Shown: piece by piece, positions 571 to 26,933 of the stretch
Position numbering within the stretch: position 1 is the first letter of the stretch
Layout: the number at the start of each line of letters is the position of its first letter
The notes under the pieces: generated by a model
The model's database searches: none
Told to the model about the DNA's origin: nothing
What the model saw: only the letters and a program-made list of their open reading frames with translations
DNA from: Limisphaerales bacterium
GTDB lineage: Bacteria; Verrucomicrobiota; Verrucomicrobiia; Limisphaerales; UBA1100
Assembly (NCBI GenBank): GCA_014382585.1
Contig: JACNJL010000053.1
Location: 1 to 59,726 of the forward strand
Direction: 5' to 3'
Length of the DNA: 59,726 bases
Translations under genes and position numbers: made by a program

Positions 571-1328
571 AAATTTCTCTTTTTATTATTACCAAAAATG
601 AGGAGGCGAATTTGCGGCGGTGTCTTATGAGTGTGGCGTTGGTGGTGGATGAGATTATTGTGGTGGATTCGGGGAGCACCGATGGCACGGAGTCGGTGGC
701 GCGGGAGTTTGGGGCGCGGTGGGTGCATCAGGATTGGCCGGGGTTTGTGAAACAGAAAAATTTTGCGCTGAGTTTGGCGAGTCACGATTGGGTGCTCAGT
801 CTTGATGCGGATGAGGCGTTGTCGGCGGATTTGTTTTCGGAATTGCTTTCGGTGAAGGAGGTGCGTTTTCCAGAGGGCATCACGGGTTTTAGTTTACCGC
901 GCTGTGTGCTTTATGAGGGCAAATGGATTCGGCGCGGGGACTGGTATCCGGATCGGTTGGTGCGGCTGTTCAAAAATGGAGCGGCGAAGTTCACCGGCGG
1001 CAAGGTGCACGAGCGGTTGGAGCTGAAAGGGATGGTGCAGGAATTCGAGGGTGAATTAGAGCATCATTCCTTTCGCGATGCCGCTGATCACTGGGCGCGG
1101 TGTGAAACGTACGCTCAACTCTGGGCTGAGATGAAGCACGAGGAGGGGCAAAGGGCTCATCCGCTTGACGGGCCAATTCACGCGGCAGTGCGTTGGTTGC
1201 GCGGCTATCTGTTTCGTGGCGGGTTTTTGGATGGCGCGCAGGGTTGGCAAATCGCCCGCCTTAATGCGCGTGAGGTGAATTTGAAATATCGGTTGCTGCG
1301 GCAGATGAACATTGCCGCGCGGGATTGA
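567..1328 (+). CDS. Glycosyltransferase family 2 (WaaE/KdtX-like)
   Basis: A 253-residue GT-A fold protein. It opens with ISLFIITKNEEANLRRCL, followed by the nucleotide-binding VDSGSTDGT and the metal-binding LDADEAL (DxD-like) motifs typical of LPS core beta-glycosyltransferases of the WaaE/KdtX type. I chose the ATG that overlaps the upstream TGA by four bases; the frame extends further upstream, but that part is low-complexity glycine-rich translation of the neighbour. The flanking GT4 and MsbA-like genes suggest a role in LPS core or glycolipid assembly. The acceptor and donor are inferred only. Confidence 0.85.
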   Translation: MKISLFIITKNEEANLRRCLMSVALVVDEIIVVDSGSTDGTESVAREFGARWVHQDWPGFVKQKNFALSLASHDWVLSLDADEALSADLFSELLSVKEVRFPEGITGFSLPRCVLYEGKWIRRGDWYPDRLVRLFKNGAAKFTGGKVHERLELKGMVQEFEGELEHHSFRDAADHWARCETYAQLWAEMKHEEGQRAHPLDGPIHAAVRWLRGYLFRGGFLDGAQGWQIARLNAREVNLKYRLLRQMNIAARD

Positions 1329-1348
1329 GTGGCTTACAAGGCGGGCGC

Positions 1349-3202
1349 GTGGAAAATATCCGGAAAATTATTGGTTTTGGCTGGCCTTATGTGCGGCGGT
1401 ACTGGGGGCGGCTGGCGCTGGGCATTTTATTGGGTGTGGCATTTGGTTTGTTTAATGCCACTTTTGTTTGGGGCACCAAAACGCTTTTTGAACGGCTGGA
1501 GCCGGTTGAGTCCAAGGTGGAAATTCCGCAGGCAGCTGCTGTGCCCGGGGCGTGGGAAGCAAAGCTCAATGATCTGAATGTGCGCGCGCAGGGGGTGGCG
1601 GATGGCTGGCTGCCGCGCGTTGGCGAGCCGCTCAACACGCGTCAAATCATTGGCGGACTGATGTTTCTTCCAATGTTGGTTTTGCTGCGCAGTGGGATTG
1701 GCTATGCCAGCGTGTATTGTCTGGGGTGGGTGAGCGAATATTCCGTGCGCGATATCAAGCTGGATGCCCATCAGAAATTGCAGGGGCTTTCGATGGATTA
1801 TTTTCACGCGAAGCAATTGGGCGATCACACGATGTTAATCAACCGCGGCGCGGGGTCGCTGCACAAATGCCTCACCTACGGCGTGGCCGACGCGATTAAG
1901 GAGCCGTTCACGATTCTCGGTTTGGTGGTGGCGATGTTTTTGCTGGATTGGCAGCTCGCCTTGTTTGGCATTTTGTTTGCACCATTGAGTGCGATCCCAA
2001 TTATTTTGGTGGGCCGCAAGCTGCGCCGCGTGGCGAAGGTGGCTTATACAAAGGGCACGGAGCAGGATAGCCTGATGGTGGAGGTGTACACTAACATGCG
2101 CACCATCAAGGCCTACGGGTTGGAACGGTTGCAGCAAAGTCGCTTTGCGGAGATTTATCAAAAGCTCGCGCGGGTGGGGATGAAATCGTTGCAGGCGCGG
2201 CATTTGCAAAATCCGGTTATTGAGTTGCTGAGTATGTTTGGCGCGGGCGTGATTATTTTGTTTGTGTTCCATACCGGAAAATCCGCGCCGCAATTGGTCG
2301 GCTTCCTCACGGGAATGATTATGCTTTATCAACCCATCAAAAAACTCGGTGGCATCAACGCGTATTACCAGGAGGCCTCGGTGGGCGTGGGGATGTTGCG
2401 GACGGCGTTTGATACTAAGCCATCGGTAGCGGAAGTGACGGAGGCGAAGGCGTTGCCGCGCTTGCGCGAGGGGCTGAAGTTTGAAGCGGTGGATTTCAGT
2501 TACGGTGATGAGCCGGTGTTGCGGGGGTTGGAGGTGGATTTGCCGAAGGGCACGAAGTTGGGTGTGGTGGGCGAAAGCGGTGCGGGCAAGAGCACGTTGG
2601 TGAGTTTGTTGCTGCGGTTTTATGATCCAACGTCCGGGCGCATCACGATTGATGGGGTTGATATTGTCGAGGGTTCATTTGAAAGTCTGCGCGGGCAGAT
2701 GGCGTTGGTGAGTCAGGAGATCGTGATTTTTAATCAATCGGTGGCGGACAACATCGCGTGCGGGAAACTCGATGCCACGCGCGGGGATATCATCGCTGCA
2801 GCCAAGGCGGCGAATGCGCACGAGTTTATTGAGGGCTTGCCGCAAGGCTACGAAACTTCGTTGGGCGAACAGGGCACGCGGCTTTCGGGCGGGCAACGCC
2901 AGCGGATCGCCATTGCGCGGGCGTTTGCGCGGCAAGCGCCGATTTTGATTTTGGATGAAGCCACCGCGTCGCTGGATTCCAAAGCGGAGGCGGAAGTGCA
3001 GGGCGCGATCGATCGGCTGGAAGAGGGGCGCACGGTGGTGTGCGTGGCGCATCGGCTTTCGACTTTGCGCGGGATGGATCGCATCATCGTGCTCGATGCG
3101 GGCCGCGTGGTGGAGTCGGGCAACTTCGCGGAGTTGATGGAACGCGACGGCGCTTTTGCCACGATGGCGCGGAAGCAGGGAATTACTTCATCGGCGGGTT
3201 AA
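1349..3202 (+). CDS. MsbA-like ABC exporter (fused membrane and ATPase domains)
   Basis: A half-transporter of about 617 residues with an N-terminal six-helix exporter domain and a C-terminal ATPase domain. Walker A is GESGAGKST, the signature is LSGGQRQR, Walker B is ILILDEATAS and the switch histidine is in AHRLST. The loop between the first two helices is unusually long (about 60 residues, with a proline-rich part), likely periplasmic. Position behind two glycosyltransferases fits flipping of a lipid A or glycolipid intermediate. The start is uncertain: this GTG follows an AAGGCGG-like site, whereas a TTG at 1325 overlaps the upstream stop and would add eight residues. Confidence 0.85.
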   Translation: MENIRKIIGFGWPYVRRYWGRLALGILLGVAFGLFNATFVWGTKTLFERLEPVESKVEIPQAAAVPGAWEAKLNDLNVRAQGVADGWLPRVGEPLNTRQIIGGLMFLPMLVLLRSGIGYASVYCLGWVSEYSVRDIKLDAHQKLQGLSMDYFHAKQLGDHTMLINRGAGSLHKCLTYGVADAIKEPFTILGLVVAMFLLDWQLALFGILFAPLSAIPIILVGRKLRRVAKVAYTKGTEQDSLMVEVYTNMRTIKAYGLERLQQSRFAEIYQKLARVGMKSLQARHLQNPVIELLSMFGAGVIILFVFHTGKSAPQLVGFLTGMIMLYQPIKKLGGINAYYQEASVGVGMLRTAFDTKPSVAEVTEAKALPRLREGLKFEAVDFSYGDEPVLRGLEVDLPKGTKLGVVGESGAGKSTLVSLLLRFYDPTSGRITIDGVDIVEGSFESLRGQMALVSQEIVIFNQSVADNIACGKLDATRGDIIAAAKAANAHEFIEGLPQGYETSLGEQGTRLSGGQRQRIAIARAFARQAPILILDEATASLDSKAEAEVQGAIDRLEEGRTVVCVAHRLSTLRGMDRIIVLDAGRVVESGNFAELMERDGAFATMARKQGITSSAG

Positions 3203-3216
3203 GCCTTCGGATTCTT

Positions 3217-4107
3217 TCAAGCGGGAATTGCTGTGGGCACACCCATTGCCTCCGGAATTCCATTGGGACCGTTGGGGATGATGGGCATTTGTTGCACGCC
3301 GAGGATGGTGTGCAGTTGGGCGTTGAGAATGGTCATGTTCGGGTAACGCTGATCCGGCGAATGGGCGAGGCAGCGGAGGATGAGCTGGCTGAGCGCGGCC
3401 GGCACGTCAGAGTTTACGCGGCAAGGGGGCTTCACGGGAAAGTTTTCATTGAGCTGATTACGGATTGCTTCATCGGGCGTGTGGCCGCCAAACGGTTTGC
3501 GGTGGGTGAGCAGTTCGTAAACGGTGGCGCCGAAGGCGTAGATATCCGCGCGCTGATCTATTTTTTCATTCTTCAACTGCTCGGGCGGCATGCACGAGGG
3601 CGTGCCGGATGAGCGGGAAAATTGCTTGGGCTTGCGGGGGATTTTTTGTGCGGTGTCAAAATCCAACAAACTCACGTGGCCATTGAGTGAAATCATCAGG
3701 TTCTCAGGTTTGATATCCAAATGCATCCAGCCGTGGTCGTGCAGGTGGTTGATGCCGTCGGCGGCTTGGATGATCACATCGGCCACGTTGTCCACGAGAT
3801 GATCGTGATCGCGCAGAAGCAGTTCCTTGAGGTTTGCGCCTTGGATAAATTCCAGCACCATAAACGGCAGCCCATCGGCTTTGCCGTGGTTGATGTAGCG
3901 GACGATGTTGGGATGGGGCGCGAGCTTGCGCATCACGCTGAGGCCGGCTTTAAACAATTTGGGTGCATTGGACTGCTTGAGCACGCGTCGCCGCAGTCTG
4001 CGCACGGCGACGACGTTCTCGTATTCGTCGGTTGCGAGCCAAATTTCCGTGATTCCACCCTGATTTATGCAGTCGTGAAGCCGATATTTCCCAAATTTCT
4101 GTGCCAT
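3217..4107 (-). CDS. Degenerate Ser/Thr protein kinase (possible pseudokinase)
   Basis: A 296-residue Hanks-type kinase domain with a short proline/glycine-rich tail and no membrane segment. The catalytic loop is intact (HLDIKPEN, residues 129-136) and the activation-segment end reads MPPEQ. Several other key positions differ from the family: the glycine loop is INQGGITEIW (two glycines lost), the ATP-anchoring lysine of VAxK is arginine (R36), the helix-C glutamate position aligns with glycine 55, and DFG is DFD (149-151). It may therefore be weakly active, use an altered geometry, or be a pseudokinase. It is transcribed divergently from the efflux cluster. Confidence 0.85.
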   Translation of the reverse strand: MAQKFGKYRLHDCINQGGITEIWLATDEYENVVAVRRLRRRVLKQSNAPKLFKAGLSVMRKLAPHPNIVRYINHGKADGLPFMVLEFIQGANLKELLLRDHDHLVDNVADVIIQAADGINHLHDHGWMHLDIKPENLMISLNGHVSLLDFDTAQKIPRKPKQFSRSSGTPSCMPPEQLKNEKIDQRADIYAFGATVYELLTHRKPFGGHTPDEAIRNQLNENFPVKPPCRVNSDVPAALSQLILRCLAHSPDQRYPNMTILNAQLHTILGVQQMPIIPNGPNGIPEAMGVPTAIPA

Positions 4108-4423
4108 ATTGTGATTTTGCTAACGAGTATCGTAGACGCTCTACTATATATTCGCGTTTCAACTATGTTTTCTTGCAAAAAAGTGAAATTATTTTTCCCA
4201 AAATCCGGGAAAATCCAAATTTCCCCGTAAAAGAGCGCGGAGCATACATTACGTGTCAAGCGGTACGCCCTCAATTTGCTCAAGTTGTGAATAACTCTGC
4301 CGAATAGTGAGTAACTAGGGTTCAGCGACTGATGCCAAGGTATTGTGTCATCGGAATGTTTGAAACACTTAGGAAATCTGGACGTCTACTCTACGCTGGG
4401 CGTGGGAATATTGCGTCCATTTG
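4108..4423. other. Divergent intergenic region between kinase and efflux cluster
   Basis: This 316-bp stretch must hold the promoters of both neighbours. It is AT-rich near the kinase, with a TATATA/TATAGT-like block at about 4144-4150 in the right place for a minus-strand -10. A small hairpin with arms TTTTCCC (4193-4199) and GGGAAAA (4207-4213) lies further upstream. I see no convincing ribosome-binding site for the TolC gene and no RNA gene. Confidence 0.4.
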
Positions 4424-6157
4424 ATGATGAACATCCAAATATCAAAGGGTTATGGAGGGTTACTCCGAAGTTTTGCGATTGGTGCGCTGGTCTCATTGGG
4501 CGTTCTGGGCTGTAAAAACGCGGGGGAACATCATGAAGCGGCCGATGCGGAGGTGTACGATATCCTCAACCTGCGGCATCAGCAGCTGTTCGGCGCGGAG
4601 AAGGAGTTTGCGGTGGAGACGCCCTATTCCAAGCGCGCGCCGGGCGAGATCCCTTCGGTGGAGATTATCCTCAACCGCTTTTCCGATGGCACCAATTTAC
4701 TCACACTACCCGAAGCGTTGGAGATGGCAGTGAGCAGCAGCCGGGATTATCAACTGCAACGCGAGACGCTTTATCTCTCCGCGCTCTCGCTCACCGGCGA
4801 GCGGCATAAATTCGCGCTCAAACCTTCCAAAGCCAATCTCGACCTTAGCCGCAATCGCTCCAGCAGCAACATCAACACCACCGAATCCGACGCCACCCTG
4901 ACTCTCAGCAAAGCACTGAAGACCGGTGGCACACTCACGGCCACGTTGGCCAATGACCTCACGCTTTTTTTTAATGGCGGCGGCCCCAAGATTCCGGACA
5001 TCACCCTCGCGCTCACGCAGCCGTTGCTAAAGGATGCCGGCGCGAAGTTTGCCGAGGAATTGCTCACCCAATCCGAACGCAATTTGGTGTACTCCATCCG
5101 CACGTTTTCGCGTTATCAAAAAACCTTTCTCGTCGATCGGATCGCGGAGTACCTGCAGTTGCTTCAGAAAAAAGACGAGGTGCGTGTGCAATACCAGTTG
5201 TACCTGAATCGCATCCGGTTTCGGCAGGAACAGGAACTACGATTGCAGGGTGAGCTGATCAGCCAATTCGAATTGGATCAGGCGTTGCGTCAGGAATACT
5301 CCTCGAAGGTCAGCTACATTAACGCCATCGAATCGTATCAGGCGTTGCTGGATGATTTCAAAAAACAACTGAACCTGCCGCTGGGCGAAACCGTGGTGCT
5401 CGACGATTCCGAGCTGGGCAACCTCAAACAGTTCGGCCTGCGCCCTGTATCACTGAATGACAAACACGGATTCCAACTCGCGCTCACCAACCGGTTGGAT
5501 ATTTTGAATAACATCGACCAGTTCGAAGACAAAAAACGCAAGGTGGAAGTCGCCGCCAACGATTTGTTGCCCAGCCTTGCGGTGGTGGCGGATTACTCGT
5601 TGAAGGATCAGTTTTACAATCGCAACTCCTTTGACTTCGGCGAGTACTCCGGCAAGATCGGCCTCTCGCTGGATCTTCCGCTGGATAAACACACCGAGCG
5701 CAACGCCTACCGCAAAAGCCGCATTACCTTCGAGCAGCAACTGCGCAGCCTGATGAAAACGCTCGATGATTTGCGTGATGAGATCCGCACCAACGTCCGC
5801 ACGCTTTCGCAGAATCAACAAACCTACACCATCAACCAAAAAGCGCTGATCGTCGCCATGCGCGAAGAGGAAAAGGCGCGGCTGGATATGCTGGCCGGCG
5901 AACGCGTGTCGCCCCGTGATATTCTCGAAGCCCAAACCGCCGTGGCCAAGGCGCAGAATGATGTCACCAAATCGCTCATCAACTTTCACACCCAACGCTT
6001 GAAATTGCTCAATAACACAGGCATTCTCAACACGGGTTTGAATGAATTTTGGGTGAAACCCCAGCCCGTACCGGGCGTAGTGCCGGCCGTGCCTCTGCCG
6101 CCGGGTTCGGGACAGGATGTGCCTGTACTTCCGCCCGCACAAATCTTGGGTAATTAA
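4424..6157 (+). CDS. TolC-family outer membrane efflux lipoprotein (copy 1)
   Basis: First gene of the efflux cluster. It has a lipoprotein signal ending in VLGC (lipidated Cys about residue 30), a short conserved extension containing ADAEVYDIL, then two OEP repeats with long coiled-coil helices (about residues 90-540) as in TolC trimers, which form the outer-membrane channel and periplasmic tunnel. The proline-rich tail (PVPGVVPAVP) resembles that of the second copy. Three start codons lie in a row (TTG, ATG, ATG); I use the first ATG. The paralogue at 14232 shares the N-terminal extension, the SALSLTG motif and the tail, pointing to internal duplication of the cluster. Confidence 0.88.
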   Translation: MMNIQISKGYGGLLRSFAIGALVSLGVLGCKNAGEHHEAADAEVYDILNLRHQQLFGAEKEFAVETPYSKRAPGEIPSVEIILNRFSDGTNLLTLPEALEMAVSSSRDYQLQRETLYLSALSLTGERHKFALKPSKANLDLSRNRSSSNINTTESDATLTLSKALKTGGTLTATLANDLTLFFNGGGPKIPDITLALTQPLLKDAGAKFAEELLTQSERNLVYSIRTFSRYQKTFLVDRIAEYLQLLQKKDEVRVQYQLYLNRIRFRQEQELRLQGELISQFELDQALRQEYSSKVSYINAIESYQALLDDFKKQLNLPLGETVVLDDSELGNLKQFGLRPVSLNDKHGFQLALTNRLDILNNIDQFEDKKRKVEVAANDLLPSLAVVADYSLKDQFYNRNSFDFGEYSGKIGLSLDLPLDKHTERNAYRKSRITFEQQLRSLMKTLDDLRDEIRTNVRTLSQNQQTYTINQKALIVAMREEEKARLDMLAGERVSPRDILEAQTAVAKAQNDVTKSLINFHTQRLKLLNNTGILNTGLNEFWVKPQPVPGVVPAVPLPPGSGQDVPVLPPAQILGN

Positions 6158-20646: not shown

Positions 20647-21492
20647 ATGAGATTTGGCATTAACTCCTTTTTATTCACTTCGCCGTTTACGACGAAATCC
20701 ACCAGCCTCTTTCCCAAGTTTGTGAAATGGGGATTCGACACCATCGAAATCCCCATCGAGGCGCCCGAACACATCGACTCGGTGAAGGTTCGCAAGGCTC
20801 TCGACAAACACGGGCTCGCGTGCGGCTCGGTCTGCGCGTGTATGGGACCGGGGCGCGACTTTCGCGGCAGCGCGAAGGACCAGCGCGAGGCGATGAAGTA
20901 TTGCAAGGCGCTCATCGACCATATGGTCAACCTCGGTTGTCCGTCGCTCATTGGCCCCGTATACAGCGTCGTCGGCAAGGCCGATGCGGTGGAGCCGAAG
21001 GAACAAAAACGCGAGTTCGCACTCGTGGTCAAAAACCTCAAAGTGCTTTGCGCTTACGCTGAGAAAAAGGGCGTGCAGATTTGTGTCGAGCCACTCAACC
21101 GTTTTGAGACCGATTTTCTCAACACTTGCGACAAAGGCCTGCGCCTCATCAAGGCCGTCAACAGCCCCGTGCTCAAGCTGCACCTCGACACGTTTCATAT
21201 GAACATCGAGGAGAAAAACCAAGCCGCCGCCATTCGCAAAGCCGGCAAATTGCTCGGCCACTTTCACGCGTGCGGCAGCGACCGCGGCACCCCCGGCAAC
21301 GATCACATCGATTGGCCGCCCATCGTCAAGGCGCTCAAATCTATCCGCTACAATGGCGATGTCGTCATCGAGAGCTTCACCACCGATGTGAAAGTCATCG
21401 CCCGTGCCGCGGCCATCTGGCGCCGCATGGAACCCACCCGCGAAGAAATCGCCGTCAAAGGCCTCAAGTTTTTGAAGAAAGCATTCAAGTAA
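20647..21492 (+). CDS. Sugar epimerase/isomerase of the D-tagatose/D-psicose 3-epimerase type (xylose isomerase-like TIM barrel)
   Basis: A 281-residue TIM-barrel protein. The four metal-ligand positions of the ketose 3-epimerase family are visible: E148 in VEPLNRFETD, D181 in LHLDTFHMNIEE, H207 in GHFHACGSDRGTPG and E242 in VVIESF; the arginine in SDRGTPG is also typical. It probably interconverts ketoses or 3-keto-sugars using Mn2+ or another divalent metal in the cytoplasm (no signal peptide). It stands 19 bases before the DUF1080 gene, now known as a 3-keto-disaccharide hydrolase-like family, which fits a 3-keto-sugar pathway; that link is inference. Confidence 0.8.
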   Translation: MRFGINSFLFTSPFTTKSTSLFPKFVKWGFDTIEIPIEAPEHIDSVKVRKALDKHGLACGSVCACMGPGRDFRGSAKDQREAMKYCKALIDHMVNLGCPSLIGPVYSVVGKADAVEPKEQKREFALVVKNLKVLCAYAEKKGVQICVEPLNRFETDFLNTCDKGLRLIKAVNSPVLKLHLDTFHMNIEEKNQAAAIRKAGKLLGHFHACGSDRGTPGNDHIDWPPIVKALKSIRYNGDVVIESFTTDVKVIARAAAIWRRMEPTREEIAVKGLKFLKKAFK

Positions 21493-21511: not shown

Positions 21512-22213
21512 ATGAAAAAACTCATCACGATTCTGTATGTCACCGCCCTGATGTTTCAGGCTACTGCCGAAGAAAAAGGATTTGAAAAAATCTTCGACGG
21601 CAAAACCCTCAAAGGCTGGGACGGCAACCCCAAATTTTGGAGCGTCAAAGATGGCGCCATCACTGGACAAACCACCAAGGACAACCCAACCCAAGGCAAC
21701 ACCTTCATCATTTGGAAAGCCGGCAAGACCGCGAATTTCATCCTCGAACTGGAATACAAAATCAACGGCGGAAATAGCGGCATCCAATATCGCAGTTTTA
21801 AAAAGGGCGGCAAAAATGACGGCTGGCGCATCGGCGGTTACCAAGCCGACTTCGAGGCGGGCGATCGTTACTCGGGTATTTGCTACGGCGAAGCCTTTCG
21901 CGGCATTCTCTCCGACCGCGGCTTTCAGACCACGCTTTCCTTGAACGACAAAGGCAAGCTCCAGAAAAAATCTGAGAAATTTGGCGACTCCAATGAAATC
22001 GGCAAAGCCATCAAGAAAGGCGAGTGGAACAAATATCGCATCGTCGCCGAGCGCTTCCATTTCGTGCACTACATCAACGGCGTCAAAACGATGGTGCTCA
22101 TCGACAACGACGAAAAAGCCCGCCGCCCCGACGGCTTGCTCGCACTGCAACTGCATCAAGGCCCGGCGATGACCGTGCAGTTTCGGAACATTCGGATTAA
22201 ACATTTGAAGTGA
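21512..22213 (+). CDS. DUF1080 protein (3-keto-disaccharide hydrolase-like)
   Basis: A 233-residue secreted protein. The signal peptide is about 19 residues (MKKLITILYVTALMFQATAE), followed by a single DUF1080 concanavalin-like fold with the family openings FEKIFDGKTLKGWDG and WSVKDGAITGQT and the NSGIQYRSF strand. DUF1080 domains are abundant in Planctomycetota and Verrucomicrobiota and some hydrolyse 3-keto-glycosides. It sits between the epimerase and the ThuA-dehydrogenase giant, so it may release 3-keto-sugars in the periplasm. Confidence 0.82.
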   Translation: MKKLITILYVTALMFQATAEEKGFEKIFDGKTLKGWDGNPKFWSVKDGAITGQTTKDNPTQGNTFIIWKAGKTANFILELEYKINGGNSGIQYRSFKKGGKNDGWRIGGYQADFEAGDRYSGICYGEAFRGILSDRGFQTTLSLNDKGKLQKKSEKFGDSNEIGKAIKKGEWNKYRIVAERFHFVHYINGVKTMVLIDNDEKARRPDGLLALQLHQGPAMTVQFRNIRIKHLK

Positions 22214-22241: not shown

Positions 22242-22306
22242 AATGACCAAGGAATGACCAAGGAATGACCAAGGAATGACCAAGGAATGACCAAGGAATG
22301 ACCAAG
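22242..22306. repeat. 11-bp tandem repeat, about six copies
   Basis: The unit AATGACCAAGG repeats head to tail at 22242, 22253, 22264, 22275, 22286 and (imperfect) 22297. There are no spacers, so it is not CRISPR. The same words occur inverted just downstream (TTGGTCATTGGTCATT, about 22363-22380), so the 22240-22380 spacer can fold into a long imperfect stem. Confidence 0.85.
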
Positions 22307-22396
22307 CTCAAATGACCAAAGCCAACTTCTTGGGCATTGGTTATTGGGATTTCCTTGGAGTTTGGTCATTGGTCATTGGAAATTAAAAGCAGCTTT

Positions 22397-25300
22397 ATGA
22401 AAAAACTAATCTTCCTCCTCGCCTTTTCCCTCTCCGCCTTCGCCGCACCCAAAAAGGTCGTGATGATCGCCGGCAAGCCGAGCCACGGTCCATTGTCGCA
22501 CGAGCACAATGCCGGCATCCAGCTCCTCGCCAAATGCCTCAAGCAAGGCGCCAGCGATCTTGTTGCGACCACCGTCGTGCTCAACGGCTGGCCGAAGGAC
22601 AATTCAGTTTTCGAAGGCGCCGATGCGGTGGTGATTTACAGCGACGGTGGCGGACGCCACCCCGCGTTGCAGGGGAAAAATCTGGAACTGCTCGGCAAGC
22701 TTATGGACAAGGGCGTTGGCTTTCTCACCATCCATTACGCCGTGGAGCCCACCACGGACAAGGGCAACAAGGAATTTGTTGCGTGGCAGGGCGGTTGTTT
22801 TGAGACCCATTTGTCAGTCAACCCGCACTGGACGGCCAACTTCAAAACGCTTCCCAAGCATCCCATCACGCAAGGCGTCAAGCCCTTCAAGGCCAACGAC
22901 GAATGGTACTTCCACATGCGCTTCGCGCCGGACATGAAAGGCGTGACACCCATCCTCTCCGACGTAGCCCCCGCCGACACAATGAAACGCGGCGACGGAG
23001 CGCACAGCGGCAACCCGACTGTGCGCAAATCAGTCGCGGCGGGTGAGAGCCAGCACGTTGCGTGGGCGTTCGAGCGCGCCAACGGTGGGCGCGGCTTTGG
23101 ATTCACCGGTGGGCACAATCATCTCAACTGGGCCAACGACGATTTTCGCAAGACTGTCCTCAACGCCATCGTGTGGGTCGCCAAAGCCGAAGTGCCAAAA
23201 GCCGGTGTACAAAGCAAATTAGTGGAAAAAGATTTGTACGATAACCTCGACAAAAAAGGCGGCCGCCGTCCCAAGCCCAAAAGCAATCCCGGCCCCAAAC
23301 CCACCGGTAAAATAACCGGCCCCAAAGCAGCAGCAGTTTCCAAAGTGCTGACCCAAAAAACCGGCCCCGCCAAGCTCGAGGCCAACATCGCGGGCGCGCA
23401 GGAATTGCACCTTGTCGTCACCGATGGCGGCGATGGTTTCAGCTGCGATTGGGCCGACTGGGCCGAGCCCACGCTCATCGACGCCGCCGGGATGCCCACG
23501 CGCTTAACCTCGCTGAAATGGAAAACCGCCTCCAGCGGATTCGGCAATGTGAGTGTGGATAAAAACGCCGGCGGCAAACCAATGCGCATCGCGGGCAAAT
23601 CGGTGGCTTACGGCCTCGGCACGCACGCCAATTCGCTCGTCAGTTACACGCTGCCCAAAGGCCACAAGTTTGTGAAATTCAATTCCACCGTCGGCCTCGA
23701 TAACGGCGGCACCGACCAAGGCAACTGCGGCAACCAAGCCAGCGTGCAGTTCCACGTGTTCACGGAAAAACCAAAATTTGTGGCGGCCGCATCCGGTGGC
23801 GGCCAAGCCGCTGGCGGGCGCACTCCCGAAGAGGCGCTGAAAAATCTCGACGTCCATCCCGCGTTGCAAGTCGAGCTATTCGCCGCCGAGCCGATGTTGC
23901 TCAGCCCGTCCAATATCGACATTGATCATCGCGGCCGCGTGTGGGTGTGCGAGGTCATCAACTATCGTGGCCACCGCAACAAGCGACCCGAAGGCGACCG
24001 CATTCTCATTCTTGAAGACACCGACGGCGACGGCAAGGCGGACAAAAGGAAAGTGTTCTATCAAGGCCGCGACATCGATTCCGCGCACGGCGTGTGCGTG
24101 CTCGGCACGGTGGACGGCAAAAACACGCGCGTCATTGTCAGCGCGTTGGACAAAGTGCAGGTGTTCACCGACGTGGACGGCGATGATAAGGCCGACAAAA
24201 AGGAGACGCTCTTCAGCGGCATCAGTGGCGCGCAGCACGACCACGGGATTCATCAATTTATGTTCGGGCCAGACGGCCGTTTGTATTTCAATTTCGGAAA
24301 CTCCGGCAAACAGTTGAAGGACAAAAACGGCAAACCCGTCATTGATCTTGCCGGCAATGTGGTGAATGACAAGCGCCAGCCGTATCAGGAAGGAATGGTG
24401 TTTCGCTGCAAACTTGATGGCAGCGAAGTTGAAACGCTCGGCTGGAATTTCCGCAACAACTGGATGGTTACTGTCGACAGCTTCGGCACGATGTGGCAAA
24501 GCGACAATGACGATGACGGCAACCGCGGCGTGCGCATCAACTACGTGATGGAGTACGGCAACTACGGCTACAAAGATGAATTCACCGGTGCGGGTTGGCG
24601 AACCTCGCGCACCAATATCGAGAAAACCATCCCGCTGCGCCACTGGCATCTCAACGACCCCGGCGTGATGCCCAACCTCCTCCAAACCGGCGCGGGCTCG
24701 CCCACCGGCATTTGCGTTTACGAGGGCGACTTGCTGCCGAAAATTTTCCACGGCCAAATCATCCACTGCGACGCCGGCCCTAGCATCGTGCGCGCCTACC
24801 CCGTCAAGCCCAGCGGCGCGGGCTACACCGCCACCACCGTCAACATCCTCGACGGCGCCAAGCGCGACAAATGGTTCCGCCCCTCCGACGTGAAAGTGGC
24901 CCCCGATGGCTCCCTCATCGTCGCCGACTGGTACGACCCCGGCGTCGGCGGCCACCGAATGGGCGACCTCGACCGCGGCCGATTGTTCCGCATCACGCCC
25001 AAAGGTCACAAGGGATACAAACAGCCGAAGTTAGATTTTAAAACCGCAAAGGGTCTCGTGGCTGCGTTAAAGAATCCAAACAACTCCGTGCGGCAAATTG
25101 CATTTACAGAATTAAAGAATCGAAAAGAGGCCACCCCAACTTTGTTGAAGCTGTTTGAGGATGGCTCTCCACATCATCGCGCACGTGCCCTTTGGTTGCT
25201 CGCCCAGAACAAGGGCATCCGCACCCCTTTGCTAATCAAGGCCGCTGTTGATAGAGATGAAAATATCCGGGCATTGTCCATTCGCATTTCGCGTCAATTG

Positions 25301-25726
25301 AAGCTCAACACATTAATTTCTATCCGAAATAAGGCCGACGATAATAGCCCGGTTGTCCGCCGCGAATGCCTCATTGCTCTGCGGCATCACAAGAGTCCGG
25401 AAGCCCCCGCGCTGTGGGCGTATCTGGCCAACGCGCACGATGGCAAAGACCGTTGGTATCTCGAAGCCCTCGGCTTGGCGGCGGACAAGCAGGAAAACAA
25501 ATTCTTTGACGCGTGGCTGAAGGCATCGCCCAAGCTCAACACCCCCGCCGCGCGCGACATCATTTGGCGTTGTCGTGGCACGCACGCGGCGAAGTATCTC
25601 GCCGACATCATCCTCGACAAATCTATTGCCGAGGAAGACAAACCCCGCTACCTCCGCGCCCTTGATTTCACCCCAAAAGGCAAGGAACGCGACGAAGCCC
25701 TCGCCCGTATTGCGCTGGGGTTGTAG
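22397..25726 (+). CDS. ThuA - NPCBM-like - membrane-bound dehydrogenase - HEAT multidomain protein
   Basis: A 1109-residue secreted protein with a signal peptide cleaved near SAFA/AP. Domains in order: ThuA-like amidotransferase fold (about 20-262: VVMIAGKPSHGPLSHEHNAG, FTGGHNHLNW), basic linker, NPCBM-like sugar-binding region (about 325-457), the PVC 'putative membrane-bound dehydrogenase' beta-propeller (about 480-900, with DTDGDGKADKRKVF calcium-type loops), and HEAT repeats to the end. It lacks the C-terminal CxxCH domain often fused in this family; a separate cytochrome follows. It likely oxidises or binds sugars in the periplasm; no substrate can be named. The start was placed at the ATG giving the signal peptide, not the frame's upstream extension. 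Confidence 0.85.
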   Translation: MKKLIFLLAFSLSAFAAPKKVVMIAGKPSHGPLSHEHNAGIQLLAKCLKQGASDLVATTVVLNGWPKDNSVFEGADAVVIYSDGGGRHPALQGKNLELLGKLMDKGVGFLTIHYAVEPTTDKGNKEFVAWQGGCFETHLSVNPHWTANFKTLPKHPITQGVKPFKANDEWYFHMRFAPDMKGVTPILSDVAPADTMKRGDGAHSGNPTVRKSVAAGESQHVAWAFERANGGRGFGFTGGHNHLNWANDDFRKTVLNAIVWVAKAEVPKAGVQSKLVEKDLYDNLDKKGGRRPKPKSNPGPKPTGKITGPKAAAVSKVLTQKTGPAKLEANIAGAQELHLVVTDGGDGFSCDWADWAEPTLIDAAGMPTRLTSLKWKTASSGFGNVSVDKNAGGKPMRIAGKSVAYGLGTHANSLVSYTLPKGHKFVKFNSTVGLDNGGTDQGNCGNQASVQFHVFTEKPKFVAAASGGGQAAGGRTPEEALKNLDVHPALQVELFAAEPMLLSPSNIDIDHRGRVWVCEVINYRGHRNKRPEGDRILILEDTDGDGKADKRKVFYQGRDIDSAHGVCVLGTVDGKNTRVIVSALDKVQVFTDVDGDDKADKKETLFSGISGAQHDHGIHQFMFGPDGRLYFNFGNSGKQLKDKNGKPVIDLAGNVVNDKRQPYQEGMVFRCKLDGSEVETLGWNFRNNWMVTVDSFGTMWQSDNDDDGNRGVRINYVMEYGNYGYKDEFTGAGWRTSRTNIEKTIPLRHWHLNDPGVMPNLLQTGAGSPTGICVYEGDLLPKIFHGQIIHCDAGPSIVRAYPVKPSGAGYTATTVNILDGAKRDKWFRPSDVKVAPDGSLIVADWYDPGVGGHRMGDLDRGRLFRITPKGHKGYKQPKLDFKTAKGLVAALKNPNNSVRQIAFTELKNRKEATPTLLKLFEDGSPHHRARALWLLAQNKGIRTPLLIKAAVDRDENIRALSIRISRQLKLNTLISIRNKADDNSPVVRRECLIALRHHKSPEAPALWAYLANAHDGKDRWYLEALGLAADKQENKFFDAWLKASPKLNTPAARDIIWRCRGTHAAKYLADIILDKSIAEEDKPRYLRALDFTPKGKERDEALARIALGL

Positions 25727-25736
25727 CGCATTTTAC

Positions 25737-25793
25737 AGACACGGATTTTCACGGATGTTTTTTAATCTGTGCGAATCCGTGTAATCCGTGTCT
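25737..25793. repeat. Imperfect inverted repeat of ACACGGAT words
   Basis: Left arm 25737-25756 (AGACACGGATTTTCACGGAT) and right arm 25775-25793 (ATCCGTGTAATCCGTGTCT) pair almost perfectly around an 18-base loop. It sits 10 bases behind the dehydrogenase stop and before the cytochrome gene. It could act as an RNA stem that stabilises or attenuates the transcript between the two genes. Confidence 0.75.
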
Positions 25794-25826
25794 TTCATTT
25801 TCAAGACACTCCATTACAATGCCCGT

Positions 25827-26933
25827 GTGAAACAGTTCATCGCCATTTTATTTTTGGTTGGCAATTTATCCGCTGCGGAGCCGTTGCCGCCGGCGAAGGT
25901 GAACACGTTGATTGAGGCGTTGGGGCGGTTGAAGCCGGCTTTGGTGAATTCAAATGCCGCGCTCAAGGAGAAGCTGAATCAAGTGCTTGATTCGGTGCGG
26001 GGCGAGGCACGTTCGGTGGCGTTGATTAAAAAATTCCAAGTGAAAGGCCGCGAAGTGGATTTGTTGGTCGTGGCGGTGAAGCACCCCAATGACCCCGCCG
26101 GTGTGGAGGCGTTGGGAATGGTGTTGGCGGGTGACGGGAAAAAAGCCGTGGCTGCGTTGCTCATCGGTAAGGATGCCAAACAAGCCGCCGCCGTGGCGCG
26201 CGCATTGGGGAACAGCAATAACCAAAAAGTCATTCCGCTGCTCGTGCCTTTGGTGACCAACGCCGAGGTGCACGTCAATGTGCGCAAGGAAGCGGTGAAG
26301 GGTTTGGCGAATTTCGAGGCTGGCGCGAAGCAATTGCTGGCGTTGGCGAAGGCGGGGAAGTTGCCACTGAGCGCGAAGTTCACTGCGAGTCTTGCATTGA
26401 GCACGGTGCGTTGGCCGGCCATCAAAGCGGAAGCGGCGAAGGTGTTGCCGCCGCTTTTGGGCGCGAATGCAACGCCGTTGCCGCCGGTGGCGGTGTTGGC
26501 CAAGCGCAAGGGCAACATTGGCAATGGCGCGAAGATTTTTCTGCGCGAAGCGGTGCAGTGCGCGCGTTGTCACAAAGTGGGCGATGCGGGAATCGAAGTG
26601 GGACCGGCATTAACGGAGATTGGTGATAAACTGCCGAAGACGGAATTGTACGCGTCCATCCTCGATCCGAGCGCGGGGATTGCCTTCGGTTACGAGGCGT
26701 GGCTGGTGTTAATGAATGACGGCAATGCCGCCTTCGGCATCATCGAAAGCGAAACGGACGATGAAATTTCAATCAAAGGCCCCACCGGCGCAGTGACGAA
26801 ACACGTGAAGGCGAATATCAAAAGCCGCGCGCAACAGCCGGTTTCGCTCATGCCGCCGGGATTGCATTTGACGTTGAAGGAAGCGGAGTTGGTGGACTTG
26901 GTTGAGTATTTGGCTTCGCTGAAGAAAAGGTAG
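25827..26933 (+). CDS. HEAT-repeat c-type cytochrome (PVC heme-binding domain)
   Basis: A 368-residue exported protein. The GTG start gives the signal peptide MKQFIAILFLVGNLSAAEP; upstream codons in the frame do not. Residues about 25-225 are HEAT-like helical repeats, followed by the PVC heme-binding cytochrome c domain with C245-x-x-C-H (QCARCHKVG), VGPALTEIGD and a final QPVSLMPPGL region holding the likely distal methionine. It should accept electrons from the dehydrogenase encoded directly upstream. In many relatives this module is fused to the dehydrogenase, so this looks like a split arrangement. Its stop codon TAG is part of a 54-bp palindromic repeat. Confidence 0.85.
   Translation: MKQFIAILFLVGNLSAAEPLPPAKVNTLIEALGRLKPALVNSNAALKEKLNQVLDSVRGEARSVALIKKFQVKGREVDLLVVAVKHPNDPAGVEALGMVLAGDGKKAVAALLIGKDAKQAAAVARALGNSNNQKVIPLLVPLVTNAEVHVNVRKEAVKGLANFEAGAKQLLALAKAGKLPLSAKFTASLALSTVRWPAIKAEAAKVLPPLLGANATPLPPVAVLAKRKGNIGNGAKIFLREAVQCARCHKVGDAGIEVGPALTEIGDKLPKTELYASILDPSAGIAFGYEAWLVLMNDGNAAFGIIESETDDEISIKGPTGAVTKHVKANIKSRAQQPVSLMPPGLHLTLKEAELVDLVEYLASLKKR

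Follow-up and report, generated by a model that had tools for sequence, protein, structure and literature searches.

Proteins of the "PVC-type heme-binding CxxCH" kind (TIGR02604 plus TIGR02603) carry a dehydrogenase module and a heme module with HEAT repeats between them. In the window analysed here (59,726 nucleotides of a Limisphaerales bacterium; all coordinates refer to its forward strand), the same heme and dehydrogenase modules lie in separate genes, which we call A and B, and a ThuA domain and a permuted NPCBM domain stand ahead of the dehydrogenase. This raises the question of whether the two genes make one system, and what such a system would do. The initial annotation had taken the split for a departure from a single chain common in PVC bacteria and had suggested a periplasmic route of 3-keto-sugar oxidation.

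Domain architecture of the gene pair

Gene A (22397-25726, + strand) encodes 1109 residues, which profile searches and a structural model (pLDDT 89.3) resolve into a signal peptide, ThuA, permuted NPCBM, a dehydrogenase of the PQQ fold and HEAT repeats; CxxCH is absent from the sequence, so that A has no heme. The limits and domains first given for this gene, including its ThuA/NPCBM front end, were therefore correct. Signal peptide-like N-termini were seen by eye on A, on B and on the DUF1080 protein encoded upstream. The ThuA domain (residues 35-261; 22499-23179, + strand) matches PF06283 at 1.4e-17 and 65.1 bits (cut-off 33.4), and ThuA residues H30, H35, H88, H113, E117, D168, E169 and H240 are the same in 50/50 alignment rows. 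The solved ThuA-like structure 4jqs is among the Foldseek matches of the model; the separate list of structural matches ranked by Z is filled by the propeller and barely covers the ThuA and NPCBM parts.

The NPCBM domain (97.7 bits, cut-off 23.9) is a true circular permutation: the canonical C-terminal part (PF08305 profile positions 87-136, 42.4 bits) comes first, at 23327-23476, and the canonical N-terminal part (positions 4-90, 62.0 bits) second, at 23501-23785, both on the + strand. Re-ordered canonically, the halves give a single match over positions 4-136 at 110.9 bits, against 104.1 for the two stretches as found. The swap is also visible against the solved structure 2vmg, a CBM51/NPCBM domain of Clostridium perfringens: both halves are recognisable in A, with the canonical C-terminal third first; the match of this C-terminal part is weak, and the second stretch of the comparison has i-E 0.032. 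The permutation makes the domain a relative of CBM51 with altered topology. It is no peculiarity of gene A, as 14/14 family genomes with a recognised domain have the permuted order, and the motif residues are invariant in this order in the 50 rows of alignment A1. The reversal singled out by the initial annotation is thus real, but it is the family norm and not an oddity. In a rapid tree of the best 80 of 287 relatives, in which many forks are weak, the domain is present in 74 of the 77 rows, a rate biased by the retrieval of these relatives partly with ThuA and NPCBM peptides; of the three rows without it, one (L159) is truncated at a contig end.

The TIGR02604/DUF7133 propeller (residues 477-870) scores 312.3-315.8 bits against TIGR02604 (residues 490-870; 23864-25006, + strand; curated cut-off 122.2). 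PQQ sugar dehydrogenases come first among its structural matches (Z 26-31), and the fold is of the GSDH/AA12 type: the comparison with 3a9g gives Z 31.0, rmsd 2.9 and 311 aligned residues, and those with 6jt5 and 1qbi give Z 29.9 and 28.1. Residues H616, R686 and N687 are invariant (50/50 rows). H616 falls opposite the catalytic His144 of sGDH in a weak alignment (sequence E 0.0011, best stretch i-E 0.87), and R686-N687 are equated with the Arg-Asn pair of CcPDH and sGDH by motif and spacing alone. A HEAT solenoid ends the protein (helices 884-1107 in the model, PF13646 match 885-960; 25046-25717, + strand).

Gene B (25827-26933, + strand; 368 aa, model pLDDT 92.2) encodes a signal peptide, HEAT repeats and a cytochrome c, as expected from its first description as HEAT plus CxxCH. 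Its likeliest start is the GTG at 25827, which opens the signal peptide-like stretch. The HEAT solenoid (residues 22-206; 25890-26444, + strand), recognised by model helices and HEAT/alphaRep matches, precedes a TIGR02603 heme domain (residues 233-364; 26520-26918, + strand; 114.6-117.2 bits, cut-off 68.15) with CxxCH at residues 245-249 (26559-26573). This domain matches Kustd1711 of Kuenenia stuttgartiensis (7zs0) with Z 17.1, rmsd 3.0 and 34% identity over 144 aligned residues, and the two share an Hfq-like barrel insert or "nose" (residues 287-340 of B). The available part of the Kustd1711 paper describes a diheme cytochrome c of about +350 mV, tuned by Ca, with M292 as distal heme ligand in the solved structure (PMC11791136). 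M342 of B aligns with this residue and, from the model, is the probable distal ligand. Unlike Kustd1711, B has one heme, and its N-terminal HEAT solenoid replaces the first heme domain.

One chain or several genes

Among the best 80 of 287 relatives (77 tree rows), the cytochrome is encoded next to A in 36, fused to it in 29, apart in 8 and unclassified in 4. Loci were scored "next" when a HEAT/heme frame in the orientation of A lay in the interval from 1000 nt before to 400 nt after the end of the A frame; a cytochrome 1.9 kb off (L171) was scored apart, and five loci (L126, L147 and L163 as fused, L124 and L160 as next) were scored on the HEAT part alone because of contig ends. The fused relatives that the initial annotation proposed to look for thus exist (29/73 classifiable), and the cytochrome does accompany the dehydrogenase elsewhere. 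All 44 unfused rows have A stopping at the same HEAT-HEAT junction. Several relatives encode DUF1080-ThuA-NPCBM-dehydrogenase-HEAT-HEAT-heme as a single chain, e.g., L137 (1739 aa), with PF06439-ThuA-NPCBM-DUF7133/TIGR02604-HEAT-TIGR02603 in one frame, and L135 (1749 aa), with the same six modules in the same order, PF06439 to TIGR02603. The split is therefore common among orthologues (36 next), although within the genome itself just two of the 13 over-cut-off TIGR02603 matches lie outside long TIGR02604-type frames, namely B and one at a contig end. Eight other frames of the genome have TIGR02604 and TIGR02603 over their cut-offs, and three more have a sub-cut-off TIGR02604.

New in this analysis is the place of the gene upstream of A (21512-22213, + strand; PF06439, 8.9e-38), which encodes a DUF1080 or 3-keto-disaccharide hydrolase-like protein and, judged from the fusions in relatives, is also a detached piece of the composite, namely its first module. 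DUF1080 is fused ahead of ThuA in 26 of the 64 classifiable relatives, next to A in 18 and apart in 20, with 13 of the 77 rows unclassified (best 80 of 287; the domain was sought up to 2.5 kb upstream, and a more distant copy in L183 was counted apart). Six loci have a fused copy as well as a separate one (L124, L130, L131, L132, L136, L173), and in all six the fused copy matches the DUF1080 protein of the window at 275-287 bits and the separate one at 56-114. The DUF1080 protein thus belongs with A and B, as first proposed. An 11-bp tandem repeat (22242-22317, + strand) lies between the DUF1080 gene and A. Further upstream, a PF01261 TIM-barrel protein of the sugar isomerase/epimerase type (20647-21492, + strand; 4.3e-40) is a neighbour and not part of the core. 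The name of 3-epimerase given to it was not sustained: its best NCBIfam match, D-psicose 3-epimerase (NF051856), reaches 180.7 bits (cut-off 300), no signal peptide was seen by eye, so that the protein is probably cytosolic, and its gene is directly upstream in near relatives only (among loci L105-L184).

A candidate glycan-oxidising unit

We propose that the DUF1080 protein, A and B are exported separately as the three parts of a single modular unit for glycan oxidation, which belongs to Planctomycetota and Verrucomicrobiota and would follow a 3-keto route, and we put the probability of this reading slightly below one half (about 0.48). The permuted CBM51-type domain would anchor the enzyme on the glycan, and the A propeller, sharing the fold of PQQ sugar dehydrogenases and a putative form of their His/Arg-Asn signature, would oxidise a sugar hydroxyl. 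Electrons would pass from A to the c-type heme of B, which would dock via the two HEAT parts that fused relatives carry consecutively in a single chain. The product would probably be a 3-keto-glycoside, C3 being the presumed site of oxidation, and DUF1080 and/or ThuA may cleave the oxidised sugar. PQQ would be the cofactor, scavenged because no gene for its synthesis was found. That the unit oxidises sugars in glycans and delivers electrons to the cytochrome is probable, and the fusions tie a candidate 3-keto-glycoside hydrolase, a dehydrogenase and a cytochrome to one job. The links of DUF1080 and ThuA make a periplasmic 3-keto route plausible; the fusions uphold the outline of the route suggested by the initial annotation, without its 3-epimerase. 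The available part of one study reports that the DUF1080 member BT2157 is a 3-ketotrehalose hydrolase and that a proposed 3'-ketolactose hydrolase of DUF1080 lies beside a periplasmic 3-dehydrogenase (PMC9007349), and thuAB has been linked to 3-keto sugars in the accessible text of two others (PMC6683767, PMC4765114).

The same unit might instead oxidise free aldoses or reducing ends at C1, giving lactones and no 3-keto sugar, with DUF1080 as a glycan-cleaving hydrolase and ThuA as an accessory domain. The nearest folds are indeed those of PQQ aldose dehydrogenases and AA12. The soluble enzyme sGDH oxidises free aldoses, and we know of no characterised PQQ-fold sugar dehydrogenase with C3 specificity. 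In the available parts of the sources, the substrates of the AA12 dehydrogenase are free aldoses (PMC4332668), CcPDH likewise joins a PQQ domain, a cytochrome and a carbohydrate-binding module and acts on free sugars (PMC6881789, PMC4332668), and PF06439 also includes the endo-xanthanase/lichenase THTE_1561 (PMC9007349). However, ThuA and DUF1080, which are linked to 3-keto sugars elsewhere, are fused to precisely the A-type dehydrogenase. We regard C1 oxidation as a serious rival to oxidation at C3, if a somewhat unlikely one.

Is the cytochrome specific to the dehydrogenase?

B might also be a general periplasmic high-potential cytochrome serving many dehydrogenases, its position beside A being loose and partly incidental. 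A-like and B-like proteins occur together in 97 of 196 genomes of the order, with A alone in 12, B alone in 5 and neither in 82, counts that ignore kinship and in which the threshold for A also admits relatives without ThuA or NPCBM. The two lie within 1 kb in 35 of the 97 genomes (at least 4 of the 35 with both in one frame), and in the other 62 B is more than 1 kb from any listed A match, in part because of broken assemblies. The neighbours of unlinked B genes are mostly unrelated (five of six regions placed, nine neighbouring frames scanned), and in L116, apparently the family genome G019, no B was found within 8 kb. This genome has 17 TIGR02604 frames over cut-off, several of them without a heme match.

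B may have a promoter of its own. A TACAAT box resembling a -10 element (25815-25820, + strand) is separated from the GTG start by 6 nt and is a candidate for such a promoter, which would give a leaderless transcript. The pattern TANNNT is conserved at the same distance in near relatives (13 loci of genera g1 and g4: L015, L025-L030, L032, L033, L036, L037, L040, L042), and is found in 19/60 distinct B frames overall and in 0/23 other window genes tested. A sigma-70 scan called no promoter at the TACAAT box, and around the window genes sigma-70 and terminator sites were no more numerous than in shuffled sequences. The A-B spacer of the window contains an imperfect inverted repeat (25739-25782; arms 25739-25756 and 25765-25782), and the scan called no terminator-like site in it. 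This repeat is replaced in several relatives by a hairpin and T-run (by eye; one was scanned, L109, with one T-run hairpin within the spacer and site numbers no higher than in shuffles). The 17-base core of the palindrome is not dispersed (2 places in the genome at up to 1 mismatch), and its insertion is ruled out as the cause of the split, since relatives with other spacers are equally split. Against a general role of B stand the fusions of B-type HEAT-heme parts to A-type dehydrogenases in 29 of the 73 classifiable relatives (best 80 of 287), and the way in which B tracks A across genomes (97 with both, 17 discordant). A general cytochrome is thus rather unlikely.

The cofactor

It is quite improbable, in our view, that the propeller falls outside the PQQ enzymes altogether, using another cofactor or being lactonase-like or purely binding, with the heme of B serving otherwise. 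Gluconolactonase/SMP30-like propellers are among the structural matches of A, and the search of this genome gave no PqqC match at E<=0.001 and no PqqE over cut-off. PqqC is over cut-off in only 5/196 genomes of the order, which we take to be the set of the co-occurrence search (same parameters), and in 2 of the 109 that hold A (G038, G123), with weak matches in three more (G045, G068, G128) and none over cut-off in 107. Either PQQ would need to come from outside the cell, or the cofactor is another one; some bacteria do use imported PQQ. In favour of PQQ, the putative His...Arg-Asn signature of its site is invariant, H616 aligns, if weakly, with the catalytic His of sGDH, and structures of PQQ enzymes top the match list by about 2-6 Z units. 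Finally, an assembly error or frameshift in a single gene, a reading for which fused relatives would speak, can practically be dismissed, because the split pair, with a new signal peptide-like start on B, recurs in family genomes and beyond the family.

Comparison with known systems and significance

The closest analogy in modules is the AA12 enzyme CcPDH of Coprinopsis cinerea, which likewise combines a propeller of the PQQ fold (6jt5, Z 29.9), a cytochrome and a carbohydrate-binding module, and whose conserved catalytic His and Arg-Asn pair has putative counterparts in A (available part of PMC6881789). CcPDH has a cytochrome b (AA8) and CBM1, lacks ThuA and DUF1080 and acts on free pyranoses, whereas the unit described here has a c-type heme, a CBM51-like domain and HEAT repeats. 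The 3'-ketolactose route of Caulobacter uses LacABC, a dehydrogenase of the flavin GMC type and of another family than the PQQ-fold propeller. Both systems combine exported oxidation with an exported DUF1080 protein; the accessible text on Caulobacter reports no fusion (PMC9007349). The thuAB operon for trehalose and 3-keto sugars in rhizobia and Agrobacterium has the ThuA domain in common with the unit. Its oxidoreductase ThuB, an NAD-dependent Gfo/Idh/MocA protein, is of a different family. The pathway acts on imported sugars in the available part of the source (PMC6683767). We found no description of a DUF1080-ThuA-NPCBM-dehydrogenase-cytochrome composite in the paper listings and passages covered from the open-licence PMC library.

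PVC genomes are rich in "putative dehydrogenase + heme" proteins of unassigned use, as the 17 TIGR02604 frames here illustrate. The fused composites link one clear subfamily of them to a cytochrome and to a candidate 3-keto-glycoside hydrolase, and Thalassoglobus neptunius KOR42 (L135) is a named strain that encodes the whole chain. With PqqC nearly absent, which cofactor this abundant enzyme family uses becomes a testable question. Should the 3-keto reading hold, glycan cleavage would be coupled directly to periplasmic respiration. More tentatively, and with the odds against it, the unit may be a self-contained oxidative glycosidase, exported as a single chain in Thalassoglobus and others and as three pieces here, that binds glycans by its permuted CBM51 domain, forms the 3-keto sugar by a PQQ-type reaction, passes electrons to a high-potential, Ca-tuned cytochrome c of its own and has the product cleaved by DUF1080/ThuA. 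This would amount to a respiratory-coupled glycan-cleaving system across PVC bacteria, working with scavenged PQQ or another cofactor.

Composition of the unit

The window corresponds to contig C53; the genome it belongs to is 3.7 Mb long and 95% complete. The nearest named relative among the best 80 of 287 is the MAG 'Verrucomicrobiia bacterium bin84o' (L105), whose A protein is 94% identical. Gene A (22397-25726) encodes 1109 residues matching ThuA, NPCBM, DUF7133/TIGR02604, and HEAT profiles, with no CxxCH in its whole sequence, and gene B (25827-26933; start codon most likely the GTG at 25827) begins with a signal peptide-like stretch, followed by HEAT and a CxxCH-bearing TIGR02603 match. 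The features that the initial annotation claimed for this region are real, and the AlphaFold models are confident (mean pLDDT 89.3 for A, where the signal peptide and two linkers score low, and 92.2 for B).

Sequence comparison points to the DUF1080 gene (PF06439; 21512-22213), directly upstream of A, as the front module of the same composite. Among 64 classifiable relatives from the best 80 of 287, DUF1080 is fused ahead of ThuA in 26, next to it in 18, and apart in 20. Fused copies score 114-330 bits against the window's DUF1080 protein, the value of 114 coming from a locus cut by its contig (L126), and in six loci with both forms the fused copy is far nearer to the window's protein than the separate one (275-287 vs 56-114 bits). 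Two relatives, L137 (1739 aa) and L135 (1749 aa, from Thalassoglobus neptunius KOR42), carry all modules within one frame, as confirmed with Pfam and NCBIfam; L177-L179 have DUF1080-ThuA followed by NPCBM-dehydrogenase-HEAT-heme, and L174, L180, and L182 have neither ThuA nor DUF1080 nearby. Of all the evidence, these fusions argue most strongly that the modules share a pathway. The PF01261 gene (20647-21492) lies directly upstream only in near relatives, as judged among loci L105-L184 (the best 80 of 287). A stand-alone second ThuA gene lies between DUF1080 and A in a sister genus and other relatives (L028-L033, L107-L109, L111-L113, L172), 46-49% identical to the ThuA of A in L028-L033. A short 11-bp tandem repeat, with inverted copies after it, occupies part of the spacer ahead of A (22242-22317).

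Splitting and co-occurrence of the cytochrome

The split pair had been flagged as unusual, which does not hold among relatives: across 77 PVC tree rows from the best 80 of 287, the B-type HEAT-heme part is next to A in 36, apart in 8, undetermined in 4, and fused in 29, so that the fused forms sought do exist. It does hold within the genome itself, where 11 of 13 TIGR02603 matches over cut-off sit in a long frame that also contains a TIGR02604 match (above its cut-off in 8 cases, below it in 3), the remaining two being one at a contig end and B; a heme gene separate from its dehydrogenase is the less usual arrangement there. On the tree, the arrangement must have changed 12 times or more. In each of the 44 rows with an unfused cytochrome, whether next or apart, the frame of A stops 2-6 residues past the first HEAT profile, and in all 29 fused rows a 6-24-residue linker joins both HEAT parts at the same point; in the split form this linker gives way to a stop codon and a spacer, after which B opens with a signal peptide-like sequence.

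Association with the dehydrogenase in other genomes was also found. At E<=1e-150 for A and E<=1e-40 for B, 97 of 196 genomes of the order hold both, 82 neither, and 17 are discordant (12 with A alone, 10 of them below 90% complete, and 5 with B alone), an odds ratio of 133 with kinship ignored. In only 35 of these 97 genomes do the two lie within 1 kb (at least 4 as one frame), so B follows A across genomes whether or not they are linked. Around B in five placed unlinked regions, scanned neighbours are mostly unrelated, and in L116, apparently of the window's own family, no B was found within 8 kb downstream of A. In L237 the B orthologue directly follows another composite (657-4820), one 1388-aa frame with ThuA, F5/8 type C, DUF7133, HEAT, and cytochrome, so another sugar-binding domain can take the place of NPCBM.

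Evidence on expression of B comes from the spacer. In the window's genus and in genus g4, 13 loci carry a TANNNT box 6 nt ahead of the B start codon; counted over all distinct B frames the tally is 19 of 60, and none of 23 other genes of the window has such a box. A hairpin with a T-run, judged by eye, precedes B in L107-L109, L112, L113, and L183 (the scan calls the one in L109). Both features suggest, short of proof, that B is transcribed on its own, perhaps without a leader. A scan with generic promoter and terminator models gave no support for a separate B transcript in the window, where, as in L106 and L110, a palindrome-like spacer of a different type replaces the T-run hairpin. The A-B spacer of L105 exceeds that of the window by ~190 nt and contains a long CCCTCTCCCTGAGGGAGAGGG-type inverted repeat not seen in the latter.

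A circularly permuted NPCBM domain

The reversed NPCBM order noted earlier is a genuine permutation and no oddity, being the family norm. First, PF08305 matches A as two swapped pieces (profile 87-136, then 4-90), which become one match (4-136) once canonical order is restored. Second, a profile of 50 relatives against the solved CBM51 2vmg agrees, with 353-444 matching chain 12-106 and, weakly, 296-349 matching chain 105-156. Third, NPCBM was detected in 14 of 20 family genomes, with the swapped pair in the A-type protein in all 14; four other NPCBM matches, in 3 of these, are single stretches spanning the break point in canonical order. Fourth, D351, W352, and W355 precede G408, H410, and S413, all invariant in 50 aligned rows, and a motif search picked up both motifs in 39 of these, always in that order (the second match in L105 is spurious). 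A search of the open-licence PMC literature on this point turned up no account of such a permutation.

Proposed cofactor, electron outlet, and chemistry

The propeller of A best matches PQQ sugar dehydrogenases (3a9g, Z 31.0; AA12 6jt5, Z 29.9; soluble glucose dehydrogenase 1qbi, Z 28.1). H616 aligns, weakly, with catalytic His144 of the last, and R686-N687 match the quinone-binding Arg-Asn pair of AA12 by motif and spacing alone; all three are invariant in the 50 aligned rows. PqqC, which PQQ synthesis requires, had no match in the genome and passed the cut-off in only 5 of 196 genomes of the order, including 2 of 109 holding A (3 more have weak matches), although PQQ-fold TIGR02604 dehydrogenases are abundant. 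The substrates of PQQ-fold sugar enzymes known to us are free aldoses.

The heme domain of B matches the C-terminal domain of the Kuenenia stuttgartiensis diheme cytochrome Kustd1711, Hfq-like nose and distal Met included. Common to both is an Hfq/Sm-like beta barrel inserted in the cytochrome c domain (B residues 287-340; Hfq chains at Z 8.2-8.6, most rmsd 1.4-2.5). Since potentials of ~+350 mV, Ca2+-dependent, are given for Kustd1711 in PMC11791136, B is likely a high-potential electron outlet.

It is through DUF1080 and ThuA that the unit is connected with 3-keto chemistry (PMC9007349, PMC6683767, and PMC4765114); the first of these papers also lists a glycan hydrolase among DUF1080 members. 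That hydrolase, the near absence of PqqC, and the free-aldose substrates are the reasons why we infer, and do not assert, oxidation at C3. Proteins annotated as sugar phosphate isomerases carry out elimination and hydration steps on 3-keto sugars when levoglucosan is broken down (PMC7676230), and a Bacteroides thetaiotaomicron lyase acts on 3-keto-O-glycosides by elimination (PMC13273386); for the PF01261 gene, such a role would be as good a guess as the 3-epimerase first proposed. The closest working model is the AA12 pyranose dehydrogenase of Coprinopsis cinerea (CcPDH), a PQQ domain with a cytochrome and a carbohydrate-binding module (PMC6881789). Together, DUF1080, A, and B form a predicted exported, modular sugar-oxidation unit that is widespread in PVC bacteria and is encoded here in three pieces.
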